From the NCBI GenBank assembly GCA_007692645.1, contig REBR01000214.1:1-46281 (forward strand): a stretch of DNA of 46,281 bases. The letters are read 5' to 3'. The position numbers and the translations under genes were made by a program. Of this stretch, positions 11,685-21,074 are shown in pieces; positions within the stretch are counted from its first letter, which is position 1; the number at the start of each line of letters is the position of its first letter. The notes under the pieces were generated by a model that saw only the letters and a program-made list of their open reading frames with translations, did not search any database and was not told where the DNA came from. Origin of the DNA: Halomonadaceae bacterium. GTDB taxonomy: Bacteria > Pseudomonadota > Gammaproteobacteria > Pseudomonadales > Oleiphilaceae.

Positions 11685-13559
11685 ATGCGCTGGGGTTATG
11701 CAGTTCGGGTTTTCGGCGTGATGTTGCTGATGGCAGCTTCATTGTTATTTCAGGCCACCGTGGCCGGTGAACCATTACCGGAGGCTGAGTCCGGCAGGCT
11801 CTCAGGGGCCAGGGAGCTGGTTGGGCTGAATGGTCTGTTTCCCGGGGAATTTATTCGGGACCAGTACATTATCACTCTGGATCCGGACATTACCCGGCGC
11901 TTCGGAGTTCCCATTTTGGATGATGCTATCGGCATTGTGCTGGCCGGCATCGGGGCCCGGGATGTGTTGCACACTTACCGCCATGCGTTGACTGGCATGT
12001 CACTGCGACTGACGCCGCTGCAGGCCTCTCTGCTTGAGCGCTTTCCCGGGGTACTGGGAGTCGAGCAGGACCAGGTGATCCAGATTGCGGCACCCGGTAA
12101 TGCCACCTGGGGCCTGGATCGTCTGGATCAGCGGGCTTTGCCGTTGGATGGTGTTTATGGGCCGCCGGATCAGGGTGGTGCCGGAGTCCATGTGTATATT
12201 CTGGATACCGGGCTGCGGAATACTCATGGGGAGTTTACCGGGCGGGTGCTGCCTGGGCGTAATTTCTCCCGTAACAGCAGCATCTTCTACTTCTGGGATA
12301 ATGCCATAGACCCGGCCAATACCAGCGACTGCAATGGCCATGGCACCCATGTGGCCGGCACGGCGGTAGGGCAGGTTTACGGCGTAGCGCGGTCTGCCCG
12401 GGTAGTGCCGGTGCGGGTGATGAATTGCAGTGGTACGGGCAGTCTTTCGGCAGTGATTGCCGGCCTGGACTGGGTAACTGAGCATCACCGTAAACCGGCT
12501 GTGGCGAACCTCTCTCTGGGTGGGGGCGGCAGTCAGGCCATGGACGACGCGGTACGTAATGCAGTGGCCCGGGGCGTCACCGTGGTGGCTGCTGCCGGTA
12601 ACAGCAATCAGGATGCCTGTGGCGGTTCCCCCAGCCGGGTGCCTGAGGTGATCAGCGTCGGTGCCAGCACCAGGACAGATGCCCGGGCCGGGTTCTCCAA
12701 CTTCGGTCGTTGCGTGGATATTTTTGCCCCGGGAGAAGAGATTACCGCCGCCTGGCATCAGGGCAATCAGGAGTTGCGCACCATTAGCGGTACTTCCATG
12801 GCCGCACCCCACGTGGCCGGCGTAGCAGCACTTTATCTGGGCAGAGAGTCCAGCGCCACACCGGCAGAGGTGCTGGGCGCCCTGCGCTCAGAGGCTACCA
12901 CCGGAGCCCTCAGGGGCATTGGCTCGGGTTCCCCTAATCTGCTGGCTTATGTGGCTCCCGGTGCGGGCAGTGAGCCGGGTTCCGGCGACCGGGTGCCAGT
13001 GGCGGCTTTCACGTTTAATTGCGAGGACACCCGCTGTGTGTTCGATGGCAGCGGCAGCACGGATGATGTGGCTGTGGCTTCCTGGGACTGGCAATTTGGC
13101 GATGGTCAGCGTGCTAACGGCGAAGTGGTCAGCCACAATTATGATCAGGCCGGTGAGTACCGGGTGACTCTGACGGTGTCAGACACCAGTAACCAGACCG
13201 CCCGGCGCAGTCATGATGTGGTGATCGAAGACAGTAGCGCGCCGGTTTGCCCGGACTGTAGTCGCTACACTGGCGAGCTACGCAGTGGCCAGGAAACCAC
13301 CATTCAAATCCGCGATTTTCTCCGCAGCAGCGGCACTATCATTGGTTACCTCACTGGCCCCCCGGGCACCGATTTTGATCTGTATCTGGAGCAGCGCCGG
13401 TGCGTGTGGGGGATTTTCTGTAGCTGGGCAACCCAGGCCACTGGGGTTGGTACTGCCAGTGAGAAAGGGTTGGAGGCCAGGGTGGGCAGTGGAAATTATC
13501 GTTGGCGGGTGCGGGCGAGCCAGGGGGGCGGGGGGTTTGAGTTGTTAAGTAATCCTTAA
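11685..13559 (+). CDS. Secreted subtilisin-like serine protease (S8) with PKD and pre-peptidase-like C-terminal domains
   Basis: This is a 624-residue exported protease. A signal peptide (1 to about 28, hydrophobic VMLLMAASLLFQATVA) is followed by an inhibitor_I9-like propeptide (about 55-130; RDQYIITLDPDI...GVEQDQ). The catalytic domain (about 140-425) has triad D174 (YILDTG), H219 (GHGTHVAGT) and S371 (GTSMAAPHVAG). A PKD domain follows (about 435-525; FDGSGSTDDV and DWQFGDG). The last 90 residues contain a DFDLYLE segment, typical of a pre-peptidase C-terminal (PPC) domain usually removed on maturation. The role is extracellular proteolysis, probably nutritional. The ATG is chosen from AGAGGT about 7 bases upstream. 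It is a single gene convergent with the haemoglobin operon, whose last stop is only 12 bases away. Confidence 0.93.
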   Translation: MRWGYAVRVFGVMLLMAASLLFQATVAGEPLPEAESGRLSGARELVGLNGLFPGEFIRDQYIITLDPDITRRFGVPILDDAIGIVLAGIGARDVLHTYRHALTGMSLRLTPLQASLLERFPGVLGVEQDQVIQIAAPGNATWGLDRLDQRALPLDGVYGPPDQGGAGVHVYILDTGLRNTHGEFTGRVLPGRNFSRNSSIFYFWDNAIDPANTSDCNGHGTHVAGTAVGQVYGVARSARVVPVRVMNCSGTGSLSAVIAGLDWVTEHHRKPAVANLSLGGGGSQAMDDAVRNAVARGVTVVAAAGNSNQDACGGSPSRVPEVISVGASTRTDARAGFSNFGRCVDIFAPGEEITAAWHQGNQELRTISGTSMAAPHVAGVAALYLGRESSATPAEVLGALRSEATTGALRGIGSGSPNLLAYVAPGAGSEPGSGDRVPVAAFTFNCEDTRCVFDGSGSTDDVAVASWDWQFGDGQRANGEVVSHNYDQAGEYRVTLTVSDTSNQTARRSHDVVIEDSSAPVCPDCSRYTGELRSGQETTIQIRDFLRSSGTIIGYLTGPPGTDFDLYLEQRRCVWGIFCSWATQATGVGTASEKGLEARVGSGNYRWRVRASQGGGGFELLSNP

Positions 13560-13571
13560 TCAGAAAAGGGA

Positions 13572-14015
13572 TTAGTCCCCACTGGTATTGACGATATCCC
13601 CGTGCATGGGGGCCAGAAGGGCGAGCAGGCGATTTTGGGCGCTGGTGGAGACGGCGTTGGCCTCCATGGCCAGGATGAGCTGTTCGTTCAGGGCGTTGAA
13701 CTGGGTGTTTGTCACCCCCATTTTTGCGTGGGATTCGGTCATGTCCATACCGCTGTAGGTGCAGGGGCCACCGCTGAGGTCACAGATCTGGTCTGAAAGT
13801 TGGCGATGGAAGTGTGCCACGTCAATGCCCCGAAACTGAAAGGCGATACGGGGGTCATCTGCGATCCGGTACAGGAGATCTTCCACAATGGTTTCTATCC
13901 CCTGACGTTCTCCAAGATCCTGATACAGAGCATCGTCCTGCTGTTGCGAGGTTACCTGACAGCCCCCGGTGAGAAAGAGGGTAGCGGTGAGTACGAGTGC
14001 TGTTGAGAAGCGCAT
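13572..14015 (-). CDS. Group I truncated haemoglobin with lipoprotein signal
   Basis: The protein is 147 residues: an N-terminal signal with a lipobox-like LTGGC (C19) followed by a globin of about 115 residues. The globin begins YQDLGERQGIETIV. F59/F61 (AFQFRGID) are at the CD corner, and the proximal histidine is H96 in ESHAKMGVT...F, the TrHbN hallmark. Group I truncated globins bind O2 or NO and detoxify NO. Anchoring in the periplasm would be unusual, since most are cytoplasmic. It is the last gene of a four-gene minus-strand set with short gaps (15 bases to the DUF3034 gene). GGAG lies 8 bases before the ATG. The lipobox is not ideal (T at -3), so simple secretion is an alternative. Confidence 0.87.
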   Translation of the reverse strand: MRFSTALVLTATLFLTGGCQVTSQQQDDALYQDLGERQGIETIVEDLLYRIADDPRIAFQFRGIDVAHFHRQLSDQICDLSGGPCTYSGMDMTESHAKMGVTNTQFNALNEQLILAMEANAVSTSAQNRLLALLAPMHGDIVNTSGD

Positions 14016-14030
14016 GATAATACTCCGGGG

Positions 14031-14912
14031 TCAGAATGAACCTTCAATGGAAAGATAGGGGCCCCGTTGGTCCTCAAGCCCCACAATGTCCCCCAGTTCG
14101 ACCCAGGCGGCGGTGACGGACAAGTGGCGGTCGGGTAACCAGGCCAGGTAGAGGCTCCACCAGTCGTCTTCAGGGACAGCACTCAGGTTATCGGGTTTCT
14201 GGCGGTACTCCGCTCCCATCAGCCAGCGCCGGTTGGCAAAGATGCCGATGCTGCTTTCGATCTGGGCTTCGTGGCTGTTGTTCCTGTCGCCGCCGAAGCC
14301 GAGCAGGCCGCCCTGGTTGGCACGGGTGCTGCGGAGGGTGGTGTTTACCAGGACGTTGCGGTGGAAGAAGGCCCCAAAGAAGAGCTTGCTACCGGCAAGA
14401 TACAGGTCGCTACCGTTGTCGCTTCGGGCGCCAACGGCCCCGGGGATAGCGCTGTTGCGGTTTCGTTTGTGCTGTATACCCAGGGACCACTGGCCTAAGG
14501 GGCTGTAAAGTACATCCCCATGAAGGCGGACTTTGGCGCCAAAGATATCCTGTTTGGCCGCATCCTGTTCAAGGGCTGGCCCAAGGGTGTCGAGGCTCAG
14601 GTTCTGTCGTGCCAGGCTGAATTCGAAACGGTTGCGCCAGTTTACGGCGGCGCTGGTCACCGTAAGGCTGTAGTCATCAAATTCGCCACGGGACAGGGCA
14701 ACGGTGCCGCCCCATTCCTCATCGCTGGCGTACCCGGCCAGTAATGCCCAGGGTACAAGGCCGCCCCCGGCGCTTCCTTCAATGGAGGTGACGCCGCCGG
14801 TACCCCAGAGGCGGCTACCGGGGTCAGCGTAAAGCCCCTGGCTGAAAAGGCAGATGAGTATCAGGATGCCAGATCCCAAGAGCGGGTGATTTTTGTTCAT
14901 TTTCAGGTTCAT
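14031..14912 (-). CDS. DUF3034 family outer-membrane-like protein
   Basis: The protein is 293 residues with a signal peptide (about 1-29; LILICLFSQGLYA). The mature N-terminus, GSRLWGTGGVTSIEGSAGGGLVPWALLAGY, is the well-conserved start of DUF3034 (PF11231). The rest is alternating polar/non-polar strands ending in SIEGSF with a terminal Phe, as in outer-membrane barrels. The function is unknown. In related bacteria the family is often found beside a 'methylamine utilization' cupredoxin-like protein and an EAL protein, as here. Two starts are possible (14912 and 14900); the first is kept, though AGGG directly abuts it and would suit the second better. Confidence 0.85.
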   Translation of the reverse strand: MNLKMNKNHPLLGSGILILICLFSQGLYADPGSRLWGTGGVTSIEGSAGGGLVPWALLAGYASDEEWGGTVALSRGEFDDYSLTVTSAAVNWRNRFEFSLARQNLSLDTLGPALEQDAAKQDIFGAKVRLHGDVLYSPLGQWSLGIQHKRNRNSAIPGAVGARSDNGSDLYLAGSKLFFGAFFHRNVLVNTTLRSTRANQGGLLGFGGDRNNSHEAQIESSIGIFANRRWLMGAEYRQKPDNLSAVPEDDWWSLYLAWLPDRHLSVTAAWVELGDIVGLEDQRGPYLSIEGSF

Positions 14913-14960
14913 CCCTGTGTGAAGCTAGTGTCCCCAGGGGAGCCGGGGCTCCGTTACGGG

Positions 14961-17279
14961 TTAAGCAAGCCTGGCAAATTCATCGGCCCAGGGCATCAGC
15001 TGATCACCGGGCATTGGCCGCGCCATAAAAAAGCCCTGTGCCTTTTCACACCCCCAGCTTTGTAACATTCTCAGGCTTGGTTCGTTTTCGATACCCTCTG
15101 CCACCACACTCAGGCCCAGGCTATGGGCCAGTTCAATAGTGGATTTGACGATCAGCTGGTCCTGGCTCTGGGTGTTCAGCTTCAACACAAAGGATTTATC
15201 AATCTTGAGCTCGGTGACCGGTAATTGGCGTAACTGAGCCAGTGATGAATAGCCGGTGCCGAAGTCATCCACGGACAGATTGACCCCGATTTTTCGTAAT
15301 CGGTGAAGGGTGTTGAGCGCGGTGCCGGCATCCTGCATAAGGGCGCTTTCTGTTATCTCAAACGTTAGCCGGTCCATGCGGTCATGCCAGTCACTGAACA
15401 GTGACTCAATGGTGTCAGGCAGGTGGCTGTCGCCAAGGTCCAGGGCTGAGAGGTTAATTGCGACGCCAATGTGGGGTAAGTCCCGGTGCCATGCGGCGCT
15501 GTCCCGGGCGATCTGACCCATAATGAAGTGGGTCAGTTCCTGGGTCTGGCCGGAGCGCTCTGCCAGGGTAATAAACTCTTCAGGATTGATAAAACCAAGC
15601 TCCGGATGGCGCCACCGAACCAACGCTTCCACTTGTACAAACGCCATATTCTTGAGTTCGATCTTGGGTTGATAGTTCATGTACAGATCGCCCTGCTCAA
15701 TGGCTAGCTCTAAGTCCCGGATCAGGCGCAGTTCCCGCAGGTGCAGCTCATCACCGCCGGATTCGTAGACTGCGAATCGCTGGCCATTGTGCTCGGCGTT
15801 TTTCAGTGTCAGGTTTATTCGCCGCCGGACTTCATCCAGGGATTGCGCATCCTGGGGCAGTGTCAGAGCGGCAATGATAAGCTGGGGTTTGATCGGGCTC
15901 TCGTTGACCAGCATGCTGGACTCACAGTGGCTGCGCAGGGTGGTGATCAACTGTTGCAGTGGGTTTTCCTCCATTGCGGGAAGCAACGCAATGAACTCTT
16001 TGCCACCGGTGCGGGCGATGGTCCCTGAGGGGGGTAGCAGGCCCTTAAGACGCAATGCCGTGGCAATAATGAGCTGATCACCGATGTGAAAACCAAGGGT
16101 TTCGTTAATGGCATGAAAATCGCCAATGGAAAATCCCAGTAGTATCTGTTCTCGCTGTTGCTCGAAGGCGCTCTGAAGTTGCCTTTCAATAAATTTGCGG
16201 TTGGGTAAACCGGTGAGGTCGTCATGATAGGCGCTGTGGGTGATCCGGTTTTCCCGGTTGATGATGCGCAGGCGCATGTTGATCAGAGCGCGGCGTAACA
16301 GACTGATTTCCCCACCCCCACGATTGGGGGGCGGAGTGACGTCCCGCTGGTCGCCGATGTTCACAGCAAAGTCCGCCAGTTCCAGCACGGGCCGTACCAG
16401 TGCCCTGGCTGTCAGCAGCACCAACAGAGCGGCCACAGTAAGGGCAATCAATACCAGAATCAGTGTCTCCAGTGCCAGCCTGTAATAGCTCCCCATGGCA
16501 TCGGCTCGGTCGGTCAGCACCAACAGGTTGATGGGCAACTCGGGTGGGCCACCCAGAACAATGCTGCGAGTGAAGTAACGGCTGCCATTGAAGAGATCCT
16601 TGCTACTGTTTGCCTCCCCCCCCATCGCCACTTCCAGAAGACTTTCATCCAGGCTGCCGGCCAGCAGGCGTTCTCCTGGGTGACTGCCCCGGGTGAACAG
16701 AATGTCGGTCTGGGTCAGTTTGCTGATGAAACCGGCAAAACCGTCATTGAGTTGAAAGCCGGCCACCAGCCAGCCCCGTATACCCGGGCCGCGCACCGGC
16801 ACTATCAGTATCTGATAGGCTTCTTCTTGCCAGGTGTGCATCTGTGAGGCCGCACCGAGACGATGTGCCTCATCCAGGAGTTGCTGGAAGGGTAAAGGGG
16901 TGTTGTTATCCAGACCCTGAAGGTTAGCAATCAGCTGCCCTTCAGCATCCGTCAGCATGGCCAGATCGGCGCCAGCACGGGCAGCGTGATTTTCCAGGGC
17001 ACTGGTTATGGTGGCCAGATCACGGCTGGCCATGGCGGATTTGAAGCCGAAATCCTGCACCACCACCTCGAGGCTGGATGTGACCAGCTGGGTGCGACTC
17101 TCGATGGTCTGCCGGGCTACGTTTTCCGCCACTTCAAGCTGGCGGTCTGCACGGGCTTTTTCCTCTTCAAAAAGGTTCAGCATCATCAGCCCTGCAATGC
17201 TGACGCTGGTGACGATTACCAGGGTCAGCATGGCCAGCATAAGGCGTCCGCGAAACCCGAGCGCTTTGCATTTACCCAT
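14961..17279 (-). CDS. Membrane c-di-GMP phosphodiesterase: sensor - HAMP - degenerate GGDEF (GGKEF) - EAL
   Basis: The protein is 772 residues. A transmembrane helix (about 13-35) leads into a periplasmic sensor (about 36-265) of Cache/CHASE type. A second helix (about 268-292) and a HAMP-like linker (about 293-345) follow. The GGDEF domain (about 350-505) has GGKEF at 425-429, so the catalytic Asp is Lys and cyclase activity is unlikely. The EAL domain (about 515-765) keeps EAL 551-553, NL around 609-610, E641 and DDFGTGYSSL 671-680, as expected of active phosphodiesterases. It should lower c-di-GMP in response to a periplasmic signal. AGGA lies 7 bases upstream, next to the stop of the cupredoxin gene (3-base gap), showing an operon. 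The neighbouring cupredoxin-like protein could supply or modulate the signal (inference). Confidence 0.93.
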   Translation of the reverse strand: MGKCKALGFRGRLMLAMLTLVIVTSVSIAGLMMLNLFEEEKARADRQLEVAENVARQTIESRTQLVTSSLEVVVQDFGFKSAMASRDLATITSALENHAARAGADLAMLTDAEGQLIANLQGLDNNTPLPFQQLLDEAHRLGAASQMHTWQEEAYQILIVPVRGPGIRGWLVAGFQLNDGFAGFISKLTQTDILFTRGSHPGERLLAGSLDESLLEVAMGGEANSSKDLFNGSRYFTRSIVLGGPPELPINLLVLTDRADAMGSYYRLALETLILVLIALTVAALLVLLTARALVRPVLELADFAVNIGDQRDVTPPPNRGGGEISLLRRALINMRLRIINRENRITHSAYHDDLTGLPNRKFIERQLQSAFEQQREQILLGFSIGDFHAINETLGFHIGDQLIIATALRLKGLLPPSGTIARTGGKEFIALLPAMEENPLQQLITTLRSHCESSMLVNESPIKPQLIIAALTLPQDAQSLDEVRRRINLTLKNAEHNGQRFAVYESGGDELHLRELRLIRDLELAIEQGDLYMNYQPKIELKNMAFVQVEALVRWRHPELGFINPEEFITLAERSGQTQELTHFIMGQIARDSAAWHRDLPHIGVAINLSALDLGDSHLPDTIESLFSDWHDRMDRLTFEITESALMQDAGTALNTLHRLRKIGVNLSVDDFGTGYSSLAQLRQLPVTELKIDKSFVLKLNTQSQDQLIVKSTIELAHSLGLSVVAEGIENEPSLRMLQSWGCEKAQGFFMARPMPGDQLMPWADEFARLA

Positions 17280-17282
17280 TGG

Positions 17283-17957
17283 TCATCCTGAAAAGCGATC
17301 CTGTAGGCTATCAAAGCGTCCGCCACTCTTAGCGGGCCTCAGGTCTAATTCAATGGCGTGGCTGCCAGGACCAGGGAGGGAAACCTCCTGATAGGTAGAA
17401 GGATCCCGCATTCTGGTATGCCAGACCCTGACAGTAAGGGGGTAGGTGTTGGCGTCCAGTTCAGCAGCAGTAAAACGGACCTTGCCGTCTTCTGCGCTTT
17501 GGCCCAGGTGCTTAGTATCCGCCACGATAATAAACCCCTGCATTTGATCGTGGATATTGCACCCCAGTTCGACAATGCCAGGCCGGTCGAAGTGGACCGG
17601 CTTTTCGTGTTCCTGGGCGTAGAGTTCAAGCTCAAAGGTCTTGGGGGCAGAAAAGGAATAAACATGGTGATAGGTGTTGTCTTTGTTGGGGAAGGCGACA
17701 CGGCTTCCCACTGGCGCCACCAGTACATGGGGGTCAAAGGCCCGGTGGCGCTGAATAACCTCAAGTGTTTCTGAGCCCTCTGCCGCCTTGGTTTGTGGCA
17801 GTAATACCACAGCGTCTGCAAGGGGTGACCCGGAGTCTGAGTCAATCAGGGTGATCTCCAGGGTTTGACCAGTGGCTGGCATTGCCATGGCAATTGCAGT
17901 AATCAGGACAACCATGAACGAAGTTCTTAATCTGATGCCTCCTTCAATGTGGCTCAT
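17283..17957 (-). CDS. Periplasmic cupredoxin-like protein ('methylamine utilization' type)
   Basis: The protein is 224 residues with a signal peptide (cleavage near MPATGQ, about residue 31). A plastocyanin/azurin-like fold follows: VGSRVAFPNKDNTYHHVYSF supplies a His, and ELGCNIHDQMQGFIIV supplies Cys, His and Met in the spacing of a type-1 copper site. The annotation 'methylamine utilization protein' is inherited from distant homologues, and there is no methylamine dehydrogenase here. It is the first gene of a four-gene operon (cupredoxin, EAL, DUF3034, truncated globin). AGGGAG lies about 6 bases before the ATG. A periplasmic copper or redox sensing role for this operon is inference. Confidence 0.83.
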   Translation of the reverse strand: MSHIEGGIRLRTSFMVVLITAIAMAMPATGQTLEITLIDSDSGSPLADAVVLLPQTKAAEGSETLEVIQRHRAFDPHVLVAPVGSRVAFPNKDNTYHHVYSFSAPKTFELELYAQEHEKPVHFDRPGIVELGCNIHDQMQGFIIVADTKHLGQSAEDGKVRFTAAELDANTYPLTVRVWHTRMRDPSTYQEVSLPGPGSHAIELDLRPAKSGGRFDSLQDRFSG

Positions 17958-18323: not shown

Positions 18324-18818
18324 ATGTTGATAAAGGATGCAATGAGCAGCGAAGTAGTTTCATGTCTGGCCAGAACCTCACTGCAGGAAATCGCCATTCT
18401 GATGTGGGACAACGACTGTGGGGCTGTCCCGGTCGTCGACGACGAACAGCGCCCAGTGGGTATGGTTACCGATCGGGACATTGCCATGGCGGCAGCGCTT
18501 CAGTACAAGCCGCTGTGGGAACTCACCGCAGAGAACGTCAGCAGCAATAAGGAGGTTATCTGTTGCAAGGCGAGTGATGGCATTGCGGATGCACTTGGCC
18601 TGATGCAGAAGTTTGCGGTGCGCAGGCTCCCTATTATCAATCAGTACGGTCAACTGACTGGCATACTGTCAATGGGCGATATCCTGTCCTTCACCCAGGC
18701 GGCCCGGTCCCGGGCCAAGAAAACCAGCAACAGTAACATTGACGCGTCTGAAGTCATGGGTTTTCTCAAGCATGTCAGCGGACATCACAAAGCCCATAAA
18801 GTCATGCAGGCGGGTTGA
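18324..18818 (+). CDS. CBS-pair domain protein
   Basis: The protein is 164 residues: two CBS motifs in tandem (about 1-58 and 70-130) with the usual signatures MVTDRDIA and ILSMGDIL. A basic 35-residue tail follows (RAKKTSN...HHKAHK). CBS pairs bind adenine nucleotides and act as energy sensors; short stand-alone forms include mycobacterial Hrp1. AGGGGAG is 6 bases before the ATG. The gene sits 37 bases ahead of the octahaem cytochrome and shares its Anr-box promoter, which suggests low-oxygen expression. Its partner protein is not known. Confidence 0.9.
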   Translation: MLIKDAMSSEVVSCLARTSLQEIAILMWDNDCGAVPVVDDEQRPVGMVTDRDIAMAAALQYKPLWELTAENVSSNKEVICCKASDGIADALGLMQKFAVRRLPIINQYGQLTGILSMGDILSFTQAARSRAKKTSNSNIDASEVMGFLKHVSGHHKAHKVMQAG

Positions 18819-18855
18819 GCGAAAGCCCTCCCATTCAGACAGGAGTGGCGGGACT

Positions 18856-20475
18856 ATGGTGGAACCGGAAATAAGCCGTTTTCACCTGAGTGCGGGACGC
18901 GCCTCTTTTCGTGCTGCTTTGGCGGTTGTGTTGGTTTGCACCGCCATGTCTGGTTTTGCGTCTCAGCGTCCACCCCCAACCGCCGATCACTCGCAATTTG
19001 ACGTGCTCAAGGGCCCCTTTGAGAACGCCCAGGATGTGACGCACGCCTGCCTGAGTTGTCACACCGAAGCCGGTAAACAGATCCGCGCAACCACGCACTG
19101 GACCTGGATATATGATCACGCCGAGACCGGCCAGGAATTGGGCAAGAGAAAGGTGATTAACAGTTTCTGTGGCATGGTGGTAACCAATGAACCGCGCTGC
19201 ACTTCCTGCCATGTGGGCTATGGCTGGGAAGACATGAATCAACCCCCGCCCAAGGCGGATGCCGCCGTAGATTGCCTGGTGTGCCATGACACCACTGGCG
19301 ATTACCGGAAATTCCCAACCCTGTCTGGCCACCCCACCTACATCCCCAGAGAATGGCCTGCCGGCAGCGGTAAAATGGTCTATCCCCCGGATCTGGAAAC
19401 CATTGCGCGAAACGTGGGTGCCAGCGGCCGGGCCACCTGCGGTAGCTGCCATTTCTATGGCGGCGGTGGTGATGGGGTAAAGCACGGTGATCTGGATTCT
19501 TCACTGATTGACCCGCCACGGACTCTGGACGTTCACATGTCGAAAGGTGGGCTGGATTTTACCTGCGCCGACTGTCACACCAGCTGGGGGCACAACATTG
19601 CCGGCAGCCGTTATCACATTACGGCCAGCGATACAGCGGGTATTGATGTGCCACTGCGCCCGGCCCCCGGTCGTGCCAGCTGTGCATCCTGCCATGGCGT
19701 GACCCCCCACCGGCAGAAAAAGCTGAATGATCACGGTGACACCCTCGCATGCCAGAGCTGTCATATACCGGAATTTGCCCGGGGCGGGGTGCCCACCAAG
19801 ACATGGTGGGACTGGTCCACTGCCGGGCAGTTGGATGAGGCGGGTGAGCCGTTTGTTGAGTACGATGAGTACGGCTATATCAGCTACATGAGTGAAAAAG
19901 GCCACTTCCGCAGCGAGGAAAACCTGGTGCCAGATTATGCCTGGTTTGATGGGGTCATGAGGTACACACTGGCCGATGAAAGGCTGAACGTTGAAACTCC
20001 CCCGGTGAGGATCAACCAGGCTGAGGGGCGCCCGGGGGATGGGAATTCCCGGATTTGGCCTTTCAAGATCATGCGCGGTAAACAGCCCTATGACACCGAG
20101 CTTGAAACCCTGCTCGCTACGCACGTTTTCGGCGAGAAAGACCGGGCACTGTGGAGCAACTTTAACTGGACGGAGGCGCTGCAGGCCGGCAGTGATTTAT
20201 CCGGCAGGCCTTTCAGTGGGCACTACGATTTTATTGAAACCACGATGCACTGGCTGGTCACCCATATGGTGCCCCCGGCTTCTGAGGCGCTCAACTGTGT
20301 GGCCTGCCATAGTAGTGAAAGTCGGTTGGCCGGTGTTCCCGGTATCTATATGCCCGGTTATCACCGCAGCCACTGGTTGGATTTTGTTGGCTGGCTGCTG
20401 GTGACGCTGACCCTGGTGGCTGTTGTGCTGCATGGGCTGGCCCGTGTAGTGCTTAGAGCGAGGCGTGGGCCATGA
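18856..20475 (+). CDS. Octahaem c-type cytochrome, tetrathionate-reductase (OTR) family, membrane-anchored
   Basis: The 539-residue protein starts at the ATG following AGGAG (18841-18845); an upstream in-frame ATG at 18739 would overlap the CBS gene. A signal segment (about 18-35) exports it. Eight CXXCH haem sites are visible, at C65, C115, C140, C195, C237, C276, C299 and C481. Seven lie in the N-terminal half and the eighth near the C-terminus. A transmembrane helix (about 508-533) would anchor it to the inner membrane facing the periplasm. OTR-family enzymes reduce tetrathionate, nitrite or hydroxylamine in vitro; the natural substrate is unsettled. K97 or K99, upstream of haem 2, are candidates for the lysine haem ligand known in Shewanella OTR. 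The stop overlaps the next gene (ATGA). Confidence 0.92.
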   Translation: MVEPEISRFHLSAGRASFRAALAVVLVCTAMSGFASQRPPPTADHSQFDVLKGPFENAQDVTHACLSCHTEAGKQIRATTHWTWIYDHAETGQELGKRKVINSFCGMVVTNEPRCTSCHVGYGWEDMNQPPPKADAAVDCLVCHDTTGDYRKFPTLSGHPTYIPREWPAGSGKMVYPPDLETIARNVGASGRATCGSCHFYGGGGDGVKHGDLDSSLIDPPRTLDVHMSKGGLDFTCADCHTSWGHNIAGSRYHITASDTAGIDVPLRPAPGRASCASCHGVTPHRQKKLNDHGDTLACQSCHIPEFARGGVPTKTWWDWSTAGQLDEAGEPFVEYDEYGYISYMSEKGHFRSEENLVPDYAWFDGVMRYTLADERLNVETPPVRINQAEGRPGDGNSRIWPFKIMRGKQPYDTELETLLATHVFGEKDRALWSNFNWTEALQAGSDLSGRPFSGHYDFIETTMHWLVTHMVPPASEALNCVACHSSESRLAGVPGIYMPGYHRSHWLDFVGWLLVTLTLVAVVLHGLARVVLRARRGP

Positions 20476-21074
20476 CGCGGGTAATGATCTATAAGCGGTT
20501 CGAACGCTTCTGGCACTGGTGCCAGGTGTTGCTTATTTTTACCCTGTTGTTCACGGGCTTCGAGATCCATGGGACCTATTCGGTACTCGGTTTTGCAGAG
20601 GCGGTCCGTTTCCACTCTCTGGCTGCCTGGGGGTTGGTGGTCTTATGGCTGTTCGTGGTGTTCTGGCTGTGTACCACCGGAGAATGGCGACAGTATGTGC
20701 CTACCCGGAAAGGCCTGTTTGCAGTGCTCCATTACTACCTGATCGGAACCTTTACTGGCGCAGCGCACCCTTATCGCAAAACCAGCAGGGCGAAACACAA
20801 CCCACTCCAGCGCCTGGCTTACCTGTCTTTCAAGCTGGTCATTGTGCCGGTTATCTGGGTCAGTGGTTTGTTGTATCTGTTTTATCGGGACTGGCCGGTG
20901 ACCCTGGCTGAGTCACTGGCCCTGGAAACCGTGGCCATGGTGCACACCGCCGCGGCTTTCGGGGTGCTGGTGTTTATCATCGCCCACGTTTATATGGCCA
21001 CTATGGGGCCGACACTGACGAGTCTCATAAAACCAATGATCACCGGCTATGAAGATCTGGATGAAGAGGATTGA
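20472..21074 (+). CDS. Di-haem cytochrome b-type membrane subunit
   Basis: The protein is 200 residues with four to five hydrophobic helices (about 14-35, 48-68, 115-140, 160-182). It has histidines in FERFWHWCQ, VRFHSLAAWG, MVHTAAAFG and FIIAHVYMA positioned as b-haem ligands, as in cytochrome b561 / FdoI-type subunits. It would pass electrons from the quinol pool across the membrane to the periplasmic octahaem cytochrome. The ATGA overlap with the cytochrome gene indicates translational coupling and supports a working complex. The protein ends in an acidic cytoplasmic tail (YEDLDEED). Confidence 0.88.
   Translation: MTRVMIYKRFERFWHWCQVLLIFTLLFTGFEIHGTYSVLGFAEAVRFHSLAAWGLVVLWLFVVFWLCTTGEWRQYVPTRKGLFAVLHYYLIGTFTGAAHPYRKTSRAKHNPLQRLAYLSFKLVIVPVIWVSGLLYLFYRDWPVTLAESLALETVAMVHTAAAFGVLVFIIAHVYMATMGPTLTSLIKPMITGYEDLDEED

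Follow-up and report, generated by a model that had tools for sequence, protein, structure and literature searches.

Four adjacent genes on the minus strand of a 46,281-nucleotide stretch of DNA from a Halomonadaceae bacterium (GenBank assembly GCA_007692645.1, contig REBR01000214.1; this whole stretch is referred to as the window) encode, in this order, a cupredoxin, an EAL-domain receptor, a DUF3034 protein and a truncated globin. Our comparison of related loci indicates that the four genes are one functional cassette, which is real and widely conserved. Based on the sequences and on structure models, we propose that they form a trans-envelope signalling cassette in which the cupredoxin would relay an outer-membrane cue to the Cache domain of the receptor and so set the level of cyclic diguanylate (c-di-GMP); we assign this reading a probability of about 0.45. 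Homologous cupredoxins are paired with several kinds of output, of which the EAL protein seems to be one, and the wider cupredoxin–receptor family appears to outrank the window cassette in interest.

Conservation of the four genes

The four open reading frames (ORFs) span positions 13572–17957 and are separated by gaps of 3, 48 and 15 nt in the ORF listing (Table 1), in agreement with a first-pass annotation of this DNA, which had also described three export signals and one periplasmic sensor domain. Hydropathy analysis bears this out: the cupredoxin, DUF3034 and globin have hydrophobic N-terminal segments, and the EAL protein has two transmembrane segments around its Cache region (dCache_3).

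The 80 loci used for comparison are the best 80 of at least 495 relatives, retrieved with a query led by the window protein, and lean to close kin. All four genes are present on one strand in the order cupredoxin–EAL–DUF3034–globin in 76 of these loci, which shows that the globin is kept in the operon of relatives and rejects chance clustering of the four genes. Carriers include Marinobacter, Halomonas/Vreelandella, Pseudomonas, Idiomarina, Xanthomonas and others. In one locus (L113) two halves of the cassette lie 4.7 kb apart, and in two (L050, L051) the EAL frame is split. The four exceptions comprise two loci with only DUF3034 and globin despite kilobases of upstream sequence (L077, L105) and two that are cut near a contig end (L092, L114). 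Moreover, complete sets were found in other arrangements, namely DUF3034–globin–cupredoxin–EAL on plasmids of the betaproteobacterial genus Caballeronia and, on a plasmid of the alphaproteobacterial genus Novosphingobium, an EAL–cupredoxin pair divergent from a DUF3034–globin pair. That all four genes are retained despite rearrangement argues for a functional link between them, and each of the two pairs looks like a sub-unit.

Within the family, 61 of 101 genomes have DUF3034, as do 16 of 276 in the class (host counted in both), and six further family genomes that were read (L136–L141) all carry the full set. Among the 276 class genomes, DUF3034 is present in 11 of the 12 with a globin match of at least 120 bits (p 3.6e-15) and in 10 of the 17 with a cupredoxin match of at least 150 bits (p 2.2e-10); both p-values ignore phylogeny, and both thresholds were chosen after the lists had been inspected. 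Fourteen of the 15 other class-level DUF3034 genomes were read, leaving out G285 (a fragment at a contig end), and yielded seven full sets, one of them with broken frames (L124). In this locus, stops interrupt the DUF3034 and EAL frames; its relative L131 is intact in frame. Elsewhere among the fourteen, DUF3034, globin and cupredoxin are followed by an extracytoplasmic function (ECF) sigma factor (L126), DUF3034 and globin stand at a contig end (L135), or the genome has a cupredoxin with a kinase and an exported globin about 10 kb away on the same contig (L127).

Predicted properties of the four proteins

The window cupredoxin matches the Pfam family Cupredoxin_1 just under the cut-off of 27 bits (26.7 bits, 5.7e-6), and its predicted copper ligands H97, C133, H136 and M139 are invariant in the 80–81 aligned cupredoxin rows. 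Its structure model has a predicted local distance difference test (pLDDT) score of 91.8 and is matched by Foldseek to amicyanin and pseudoazurin, so that alignment, model and fold search agree on a type-1 cupredoxin with His, Cys, His and Met ligands. We therefore predict a periplasmic, amicyanin/pseudoazurin-like protein with a Sec signal. It shares the cupredoxin fold with these carriers, and its ligand loop, C-x2-H-x2-M, is like that of amicyanin. It differs from them in a TM-score over the query of mostly 0.34–0.40, in an extra C-terminal region with an invariant W179 and a near-invariant H180, and in having a receptor as the usual neighbour of its type. The database name "methylamine utilization protein" given to such cupredoxins fits the amicyanin-like similarity; a role in methylamine metabolism was rejected, as the scan of neighbours revealed no methylamine dehydrogenase.

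The EAL protein matches the Pfam profiles EAL (6.5e-69), GGDEF (2.2e-23), dCache_3 (2.3e-11) and, below cut-off, HAMP (0.0011). Residues E551, R555, N609, E641, E644, D671, D672, K692, E728, E731 and Q748, which we take to be those required for catalysis, are kept in all 82 rows with letters at these positions, and the protein is accordingly a probable EAL phosphodiesterase. The GGDEF motif is canonical in 17 of 81 rows with letters and reads GGKEF in the window, which does not conform to the GG(D/E)EF motif of diguanylate cyclases; a cyclase output was rejected on this ground, and c-di-GMP hydrolysis is the most likely output. Some relatives have a second protein of this kind beside the cassette. 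In Pseudomonas chlororaphis (L116:10351-12813, 930 bits) and Halomonas sp. M20 (L062:10564-12042, 536 bits), the globin is followed immediately by a second match to the EAL-receptor profile, and nine Halomonas/Vreelandella loci (L063, L066, L068, L069, L070, L071, L079, L089, L115) carry a weaker, convergent ORF matching the EAL/GGDEF profile (about 130 bits) directly after the globin.

The DUF3034 protein of 293 amino acids (Pfam match 6e-100) is modelled with 12 long strands (pLDDT 86.3), and the nearest solved folds in Foldseek are FapF, OmpG, Omp33 and KdgM. Together with the hydrophobic N-terminal signal, the model places it among the outer-membrane beta-barrels; a soluble domain was rejected on the basis of the 12-strand barrel and the Foldseek matches.

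The globin belongs to the group 1 truncated haemoglobins (TrHb1), as indicated by a whole-domain profile match (Bac_globin, 3.2e-11, residues 30–142), by matches to TrHb1 structures in the PDB down to 4.7e-12 and by the proximal His96 (F8), which is present in 146 of 146 distinct DUF3034-linked globins. Its N-terminus contains FLTGGC, a weak lipobox with Thr at −3 following a hydrophobic stretch. Among 85 homologues, 64 have a strict lipobox, seven more (the window included) were accepted by eye, and 14 show only an ordinary hydrophobic signal. The window globin is probably a lipid-anchored lipoprotein. Export is predicted from a hydrophobic N-terminus in all 85 homologues, and a cytoplasmic globin was rejected on these N-terminal signals and on the pattern of a cysteine pair: Cys78 and Cys85 are each present in 145 of the 146 DUF3034-linked globins. 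In 22 TrHb1 proteins from loci without DUF3034 in the stretch read, both cysteines occur in seven of the seven with a hydrophobic N-terminus versus none of the 15 without (Fisher p 5.9e-6), the 12-residue hydropathy mean being 1.7 to 3.4 in the seven and at most 0.8 in the 15; two of the seven (L181, L183) come from genomes which have DUF3034 elsewhere. Since the pair tracks the hydrophobic N-terminus, it can serve as a marker of exported TrHb1, and it would fit a disulphide formed outside the cytoplasm.

Cupredoxins outside the gene set

A class-wide search with the cupredoxin alignment detected strong homologues also in genomes without DUF3034. Cupredoxins adjoin Cache-HAMP receptors whose output is an adenylate/guanylate cyclase (L202, L206, L208, L288), a Ser/Thr kinase (L127, L211, L212, L214, L305) or a histidine kinase (L203), and GGDEF-EAL receptors accompany them in L204 and L205 (one gene between in each), L207 (divergent) and L209 (HAMP, no Cache by Pfam). 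The type-1 ligand motif is kept in nearly all checked cupredoxins with cyclase, kinase or barrel-only partners. Beside the cyclase-type receptor of L202, a hemerythrin-domain protein is encoded on the opposite strand (L202:2177-3271).

Extended to the phylum, the search hit 63 of 397 genomes at 69 places; 58 of these places were fetched (L251–L308), eight had been read before and G012, G021 and G027 were left out. Adjacent receptors with EAL, cyclase or kinase output were found in 46 of the 58 loci: 30 full quartets, 14 with cupredoxin and EAL receptor without DUF3034, one cyclase and one kinase. On a cupredoxin tree, built from every fifth full-set row with hand-given labels and a rough bootstrap, the context labels are clustered (16 changes, versus 41.5 on average after shuffling), and a single change accounts for the four cyclase-linked rows; L213 was labelled as kinase, its kinase lying about 1.75 kb away. 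These patterns suggest that the output domain has been swapped several times (EAL, cyclase, Ser/Thr kinase, histidine kinase and perhaps ECF sigma factor) while the cupredoxin was kept.

The barrel may vary in a similar manner. Fourteen of the 58 loci, as well as L203, L207 and L209, encode next to cupredoxin or receptor a member of a family matching L209:3374-4654 or L275:5239-6495; the family's BBP2 scores are 25.4 and 22.8 bits versus a cut-off of 26.2, and its members in L280 and L203 have no Pfam evidence. Furthermore, Porin_5 matches above cut-off stand beside the kinase-type receptors of L127 and L305, and an OMP_b-brl-like protein, below cut-off, occurs with L205 and L288, with a relative of it in L202. 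We conclude with moderate confidence that the cupredoxin is repeatedly paired with an outer-membrane barrel of changing family. In L280, as in L275 and L284, cupredoxin and barrel-like protein occur with no receptor; a TonB-dependent receptor and a 2OG-Fe(II) oxygenase precede the pair in L280, and L275 and L284 have ORFs of similar size.

Proposed mechanism and alternatives

As the cupredoxin is common to all versions, it is likely to be the signal carrier, the Cache receptor being its likely reader and the C-terminal domain of the receptor the output. The gene pairing suggests that the Cache receptor would have the cupredoxin as its partner in the periplasm, and that the barrel and the probably lipid-anchored globin would give the cupredoxin its cue at the outer membrane. 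This cue would most likely be a redox or haem-ligand state, carried as the oxidation or metallation state of the copper; redox change via barrel and globin is our first choice for what alters the cupredoxin, and copper loading the second. The Cache domain may then read the state of the cupredoxin, which would shift the phosphodiesterase activity of the EAL domain and with it the c-di-GMP level. The first-pass annotation had likewise proposed a copper/haem set feeding the EAL domain; the envelope copper and haem proteins and the intact EAL site agree with this, whereas NO (nitric oxide), one of the ligands that it named, lacks comparative support, as discussed below. In a more general architecture, a barrel (DUF3034, BBP2-like, OMP-like or Porin_5) would pass a redox or metal cue to a diffusible cupredoxin messenger for a Cache receptor, barrel and output being exchangeable, and the window would hold the variant with DUF3034, in which an exported globin lipoprotein is the front end; we consider this generalization conceivable but doubtful.

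Several observations weigh against a signalling role of the whole set. Four of the class-level loci (L123, L129, L133, L134) have a divergent DUF3034 protein and none of the other three genes in the stretch read, and L283 has cupredoxin, DUF3034 and globin without an adjacent receptor. Among the 58 phylum-level loci, six have a cupredoxin and a barrel-like protein without adjacent receptor, and five have neither by the cupredoxin. Such receptor-less loci argue for a role of the cupredoxin that is independent of the receptor. In addition, barrel calls outside DUF3034 and Porin_5 are sub-threshold Pfam matches, and weak cupredoxin homologues (L216–L218) adjoin c-type cytochromes or MauG-like proteins, an ordinary electron-transfer setting. 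Together, the receptor-less loci and these neighbours suggest an older role in electron transfer or transport, to which the receptor came later.

The receptor-less loci also speak for an alternative in which cupredoxin and globin are an electron-transfer pair, the cupredoxin feeding the exported globin for an envelope-located reduction of O2, NO or peroxide, of which the EAL protein would report flux or product. The closest folds of the cupredoxin, amicyanin and pseudoazurin, are electron carriers, and a periplasmic truncated haemoglobin of a cable bacterium has been proposed as an O2 reducer in the part of PMC12093952 consulted. Most receptor-linked cupredoxins outside the quartet, however, lack both globin and DUF3034 in the sequence that was read, which argues that the globin is not needed as the cupredoxin's electron acceptor, and we judge this alternative unlikely. 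Copper sensing, in which the barrel would admit copper, the loaded cupredoxin would signal via the Cache domain and the globin would be auxiliary, agrees with the type-1 ligands being kept across EAL-partnered cupredoxins and nearly all checked ones with other partners. Type-1 sites, however, usually bind copper tightly and use it for redox, the neighbours in the scanned part of each locus included no evident copper-resistance gene family, and the retention of an exported haem protein in the DUF3034 form would be left unexplained; we hold this to be quite unlikely.

A sensor in which NO bound by the exported globin leads to activation of the EAL domain would be consistent with the distal pocket of the DUF3034-linked globins, in which the usual polar residues are missing: the position aligned with B10 is L, I, V or M in 138 of 146, E7 is F, L, I or V in 146 and E11 is L, F, I or M in 145 (positions taken via the alignment with 1dlw and its residue roles). 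Apolar pockets of haem sensors favour NO or CO over O2; the other sampled TrHb1, however, are often apolar at the same positions. Moreover, nirS-like genes (E at most 1e-100) are rarer in family genomes with DUF3034 than in those without (20/61 versus 26/40, p 0.002), and NnrS shows no positive link (48/61 versus 37/40, p 0.09), phylogeny being ignored in both tests. The host genome, which is 88% complete, shows neither a nirS-like gene nor NnrS, and FNR/DNR-like boxes occur in 16 of 96 upstream regions versus 10% of shuffles, which is no clear enrichment. These comparisons do not favour the NO ligand of the first-pass annotation and weaken endogenous NO from denitrification as a stimulus, while NO from outside would be compatible with the gene counts; we regard the NO sensor as improbable.

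Relation to described systems

The output of YfiBNR is c-di-GMP synthesis by the diguanylate cyclase YfiN, with YfiB as an outer-membrane lipoprotein and YfiR as a periplasmic protein. Compared by architecture only, our cassette shares with the system as described in the consulted parts of PMC2837407, PMC4655355 and PMC4887326 an outer-membrane part, a periplasmic protein and an inner-membrane c-di-GMP enzyme; it differs in that no copper protein, globin or barrel is part of what is described there. A periplasmic protein working with a membrane c-di-GMP enzyme is also known from NspS–MbaA and other c-di-GMP receptors with a periplasmic partner (PMC8967002, in part); NspS–MbaA is described there as a polyamine receptor, whereas the partner in our cassette is a type-1 cupredoxin. 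Globin-coupled sensors and H-NOX proteins likewise tie a haem protein to c-di-GMP turnover (PMC8846402, in part), whereas the window globin is a separate exported protein. In the main text of this review on c-di-GMP inputs, "globin" occurs 18 times, "nitric oxide" 10 times and copper, cupredoxin or outer membrane not at all. The cable-bacterium protein mentioned above is also an exported truncated haemoglobin, proposed for O2 reduction, and the passage on it (PMC12093952) makes no link to c-di-GMP. The consulted part of a paper on truncated haemoglobins of iron oxidisers (PMC3770913) does not connect them with nearby EAL genes. A literature search, which left most subscription journals outside, turned up no paper on the cassette, and DUF3034 appeared once each in two papers, neither of which concerns this cassette by its title; the cassette is apparently undescribed so far.

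If our proposal is true, a blue-copper protein, of a class known mainly as electron carriers, would carry a signal between the outer membrane and a second messenger inside the cell. DUF3034 would gain a function, and so would the exported truncated globins with their probable disulphide; both are conserved in Pseudomonas, Halomonas, Marinobacter, Xanthomonas and others. Copper or redox would also join the inputs of c-di-GMP networks, in which many receptors still have no known stimulus. Since culturable laboratory species carry the set, it is open to experiment.

Layout of the locus

The host genome comprises 3.57 Mb in 288 contigs, with one Bac_globin match and 29 EAL matches in profile searches. 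No sigma-70-like promoter was found ahead of the cupredoxin gene, and FNR/DNR, NsrR, NorR, Fur, CueR-like and ArcA patterns showed no clear enrichment in the 96 upstream regions.

Table 1. Features of the cassette in the window.
Feature	Position	Strand	Evidence
Type-1 cupredoxin, 224 aa	17283..17957	-	ORF, Pfam, alignment, structure model, Foldseek
Inner-membrane receptor, transmembrane segment-dCache_3-transmembrane segment-HAMP-degenerate GGDEF (GGKEF)-EAL, 772 aa	14961..17279	-	Pfam, alignment, hydropathy
DUF3034, predicted 12-strand outer-membrane beta-barrel with Sec signal, 293 aa	14031..14912	-	Pfam, model, Foldseek
Exported group 1 truncated globin, probable lipoprotein (FLTGGC), Cys78/Cys85, proximal His96, 147 aa	13572..14015	-	Pfam, alignments
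Weak terminator-like hairpin where the globin gene ends	13567..13580	-	Consensus scan only; 10 in the region versus 5.3 expected

Just upstream of the cassette, on the opposite strand, a multihaem c-type cytochrome (Cytochrome_cB, c7-like) is followed by a cytochrome b561 protein (18739-21074, plus strand), and a CBS-domain protein (18324-18818) precedes the multihaem cytochrome gene. On the other side, an S8 protease with inhibitor I9 and PKD domains (11685-13559, plus strand) is convergent with the globin gene, with 12 nt between their ends.

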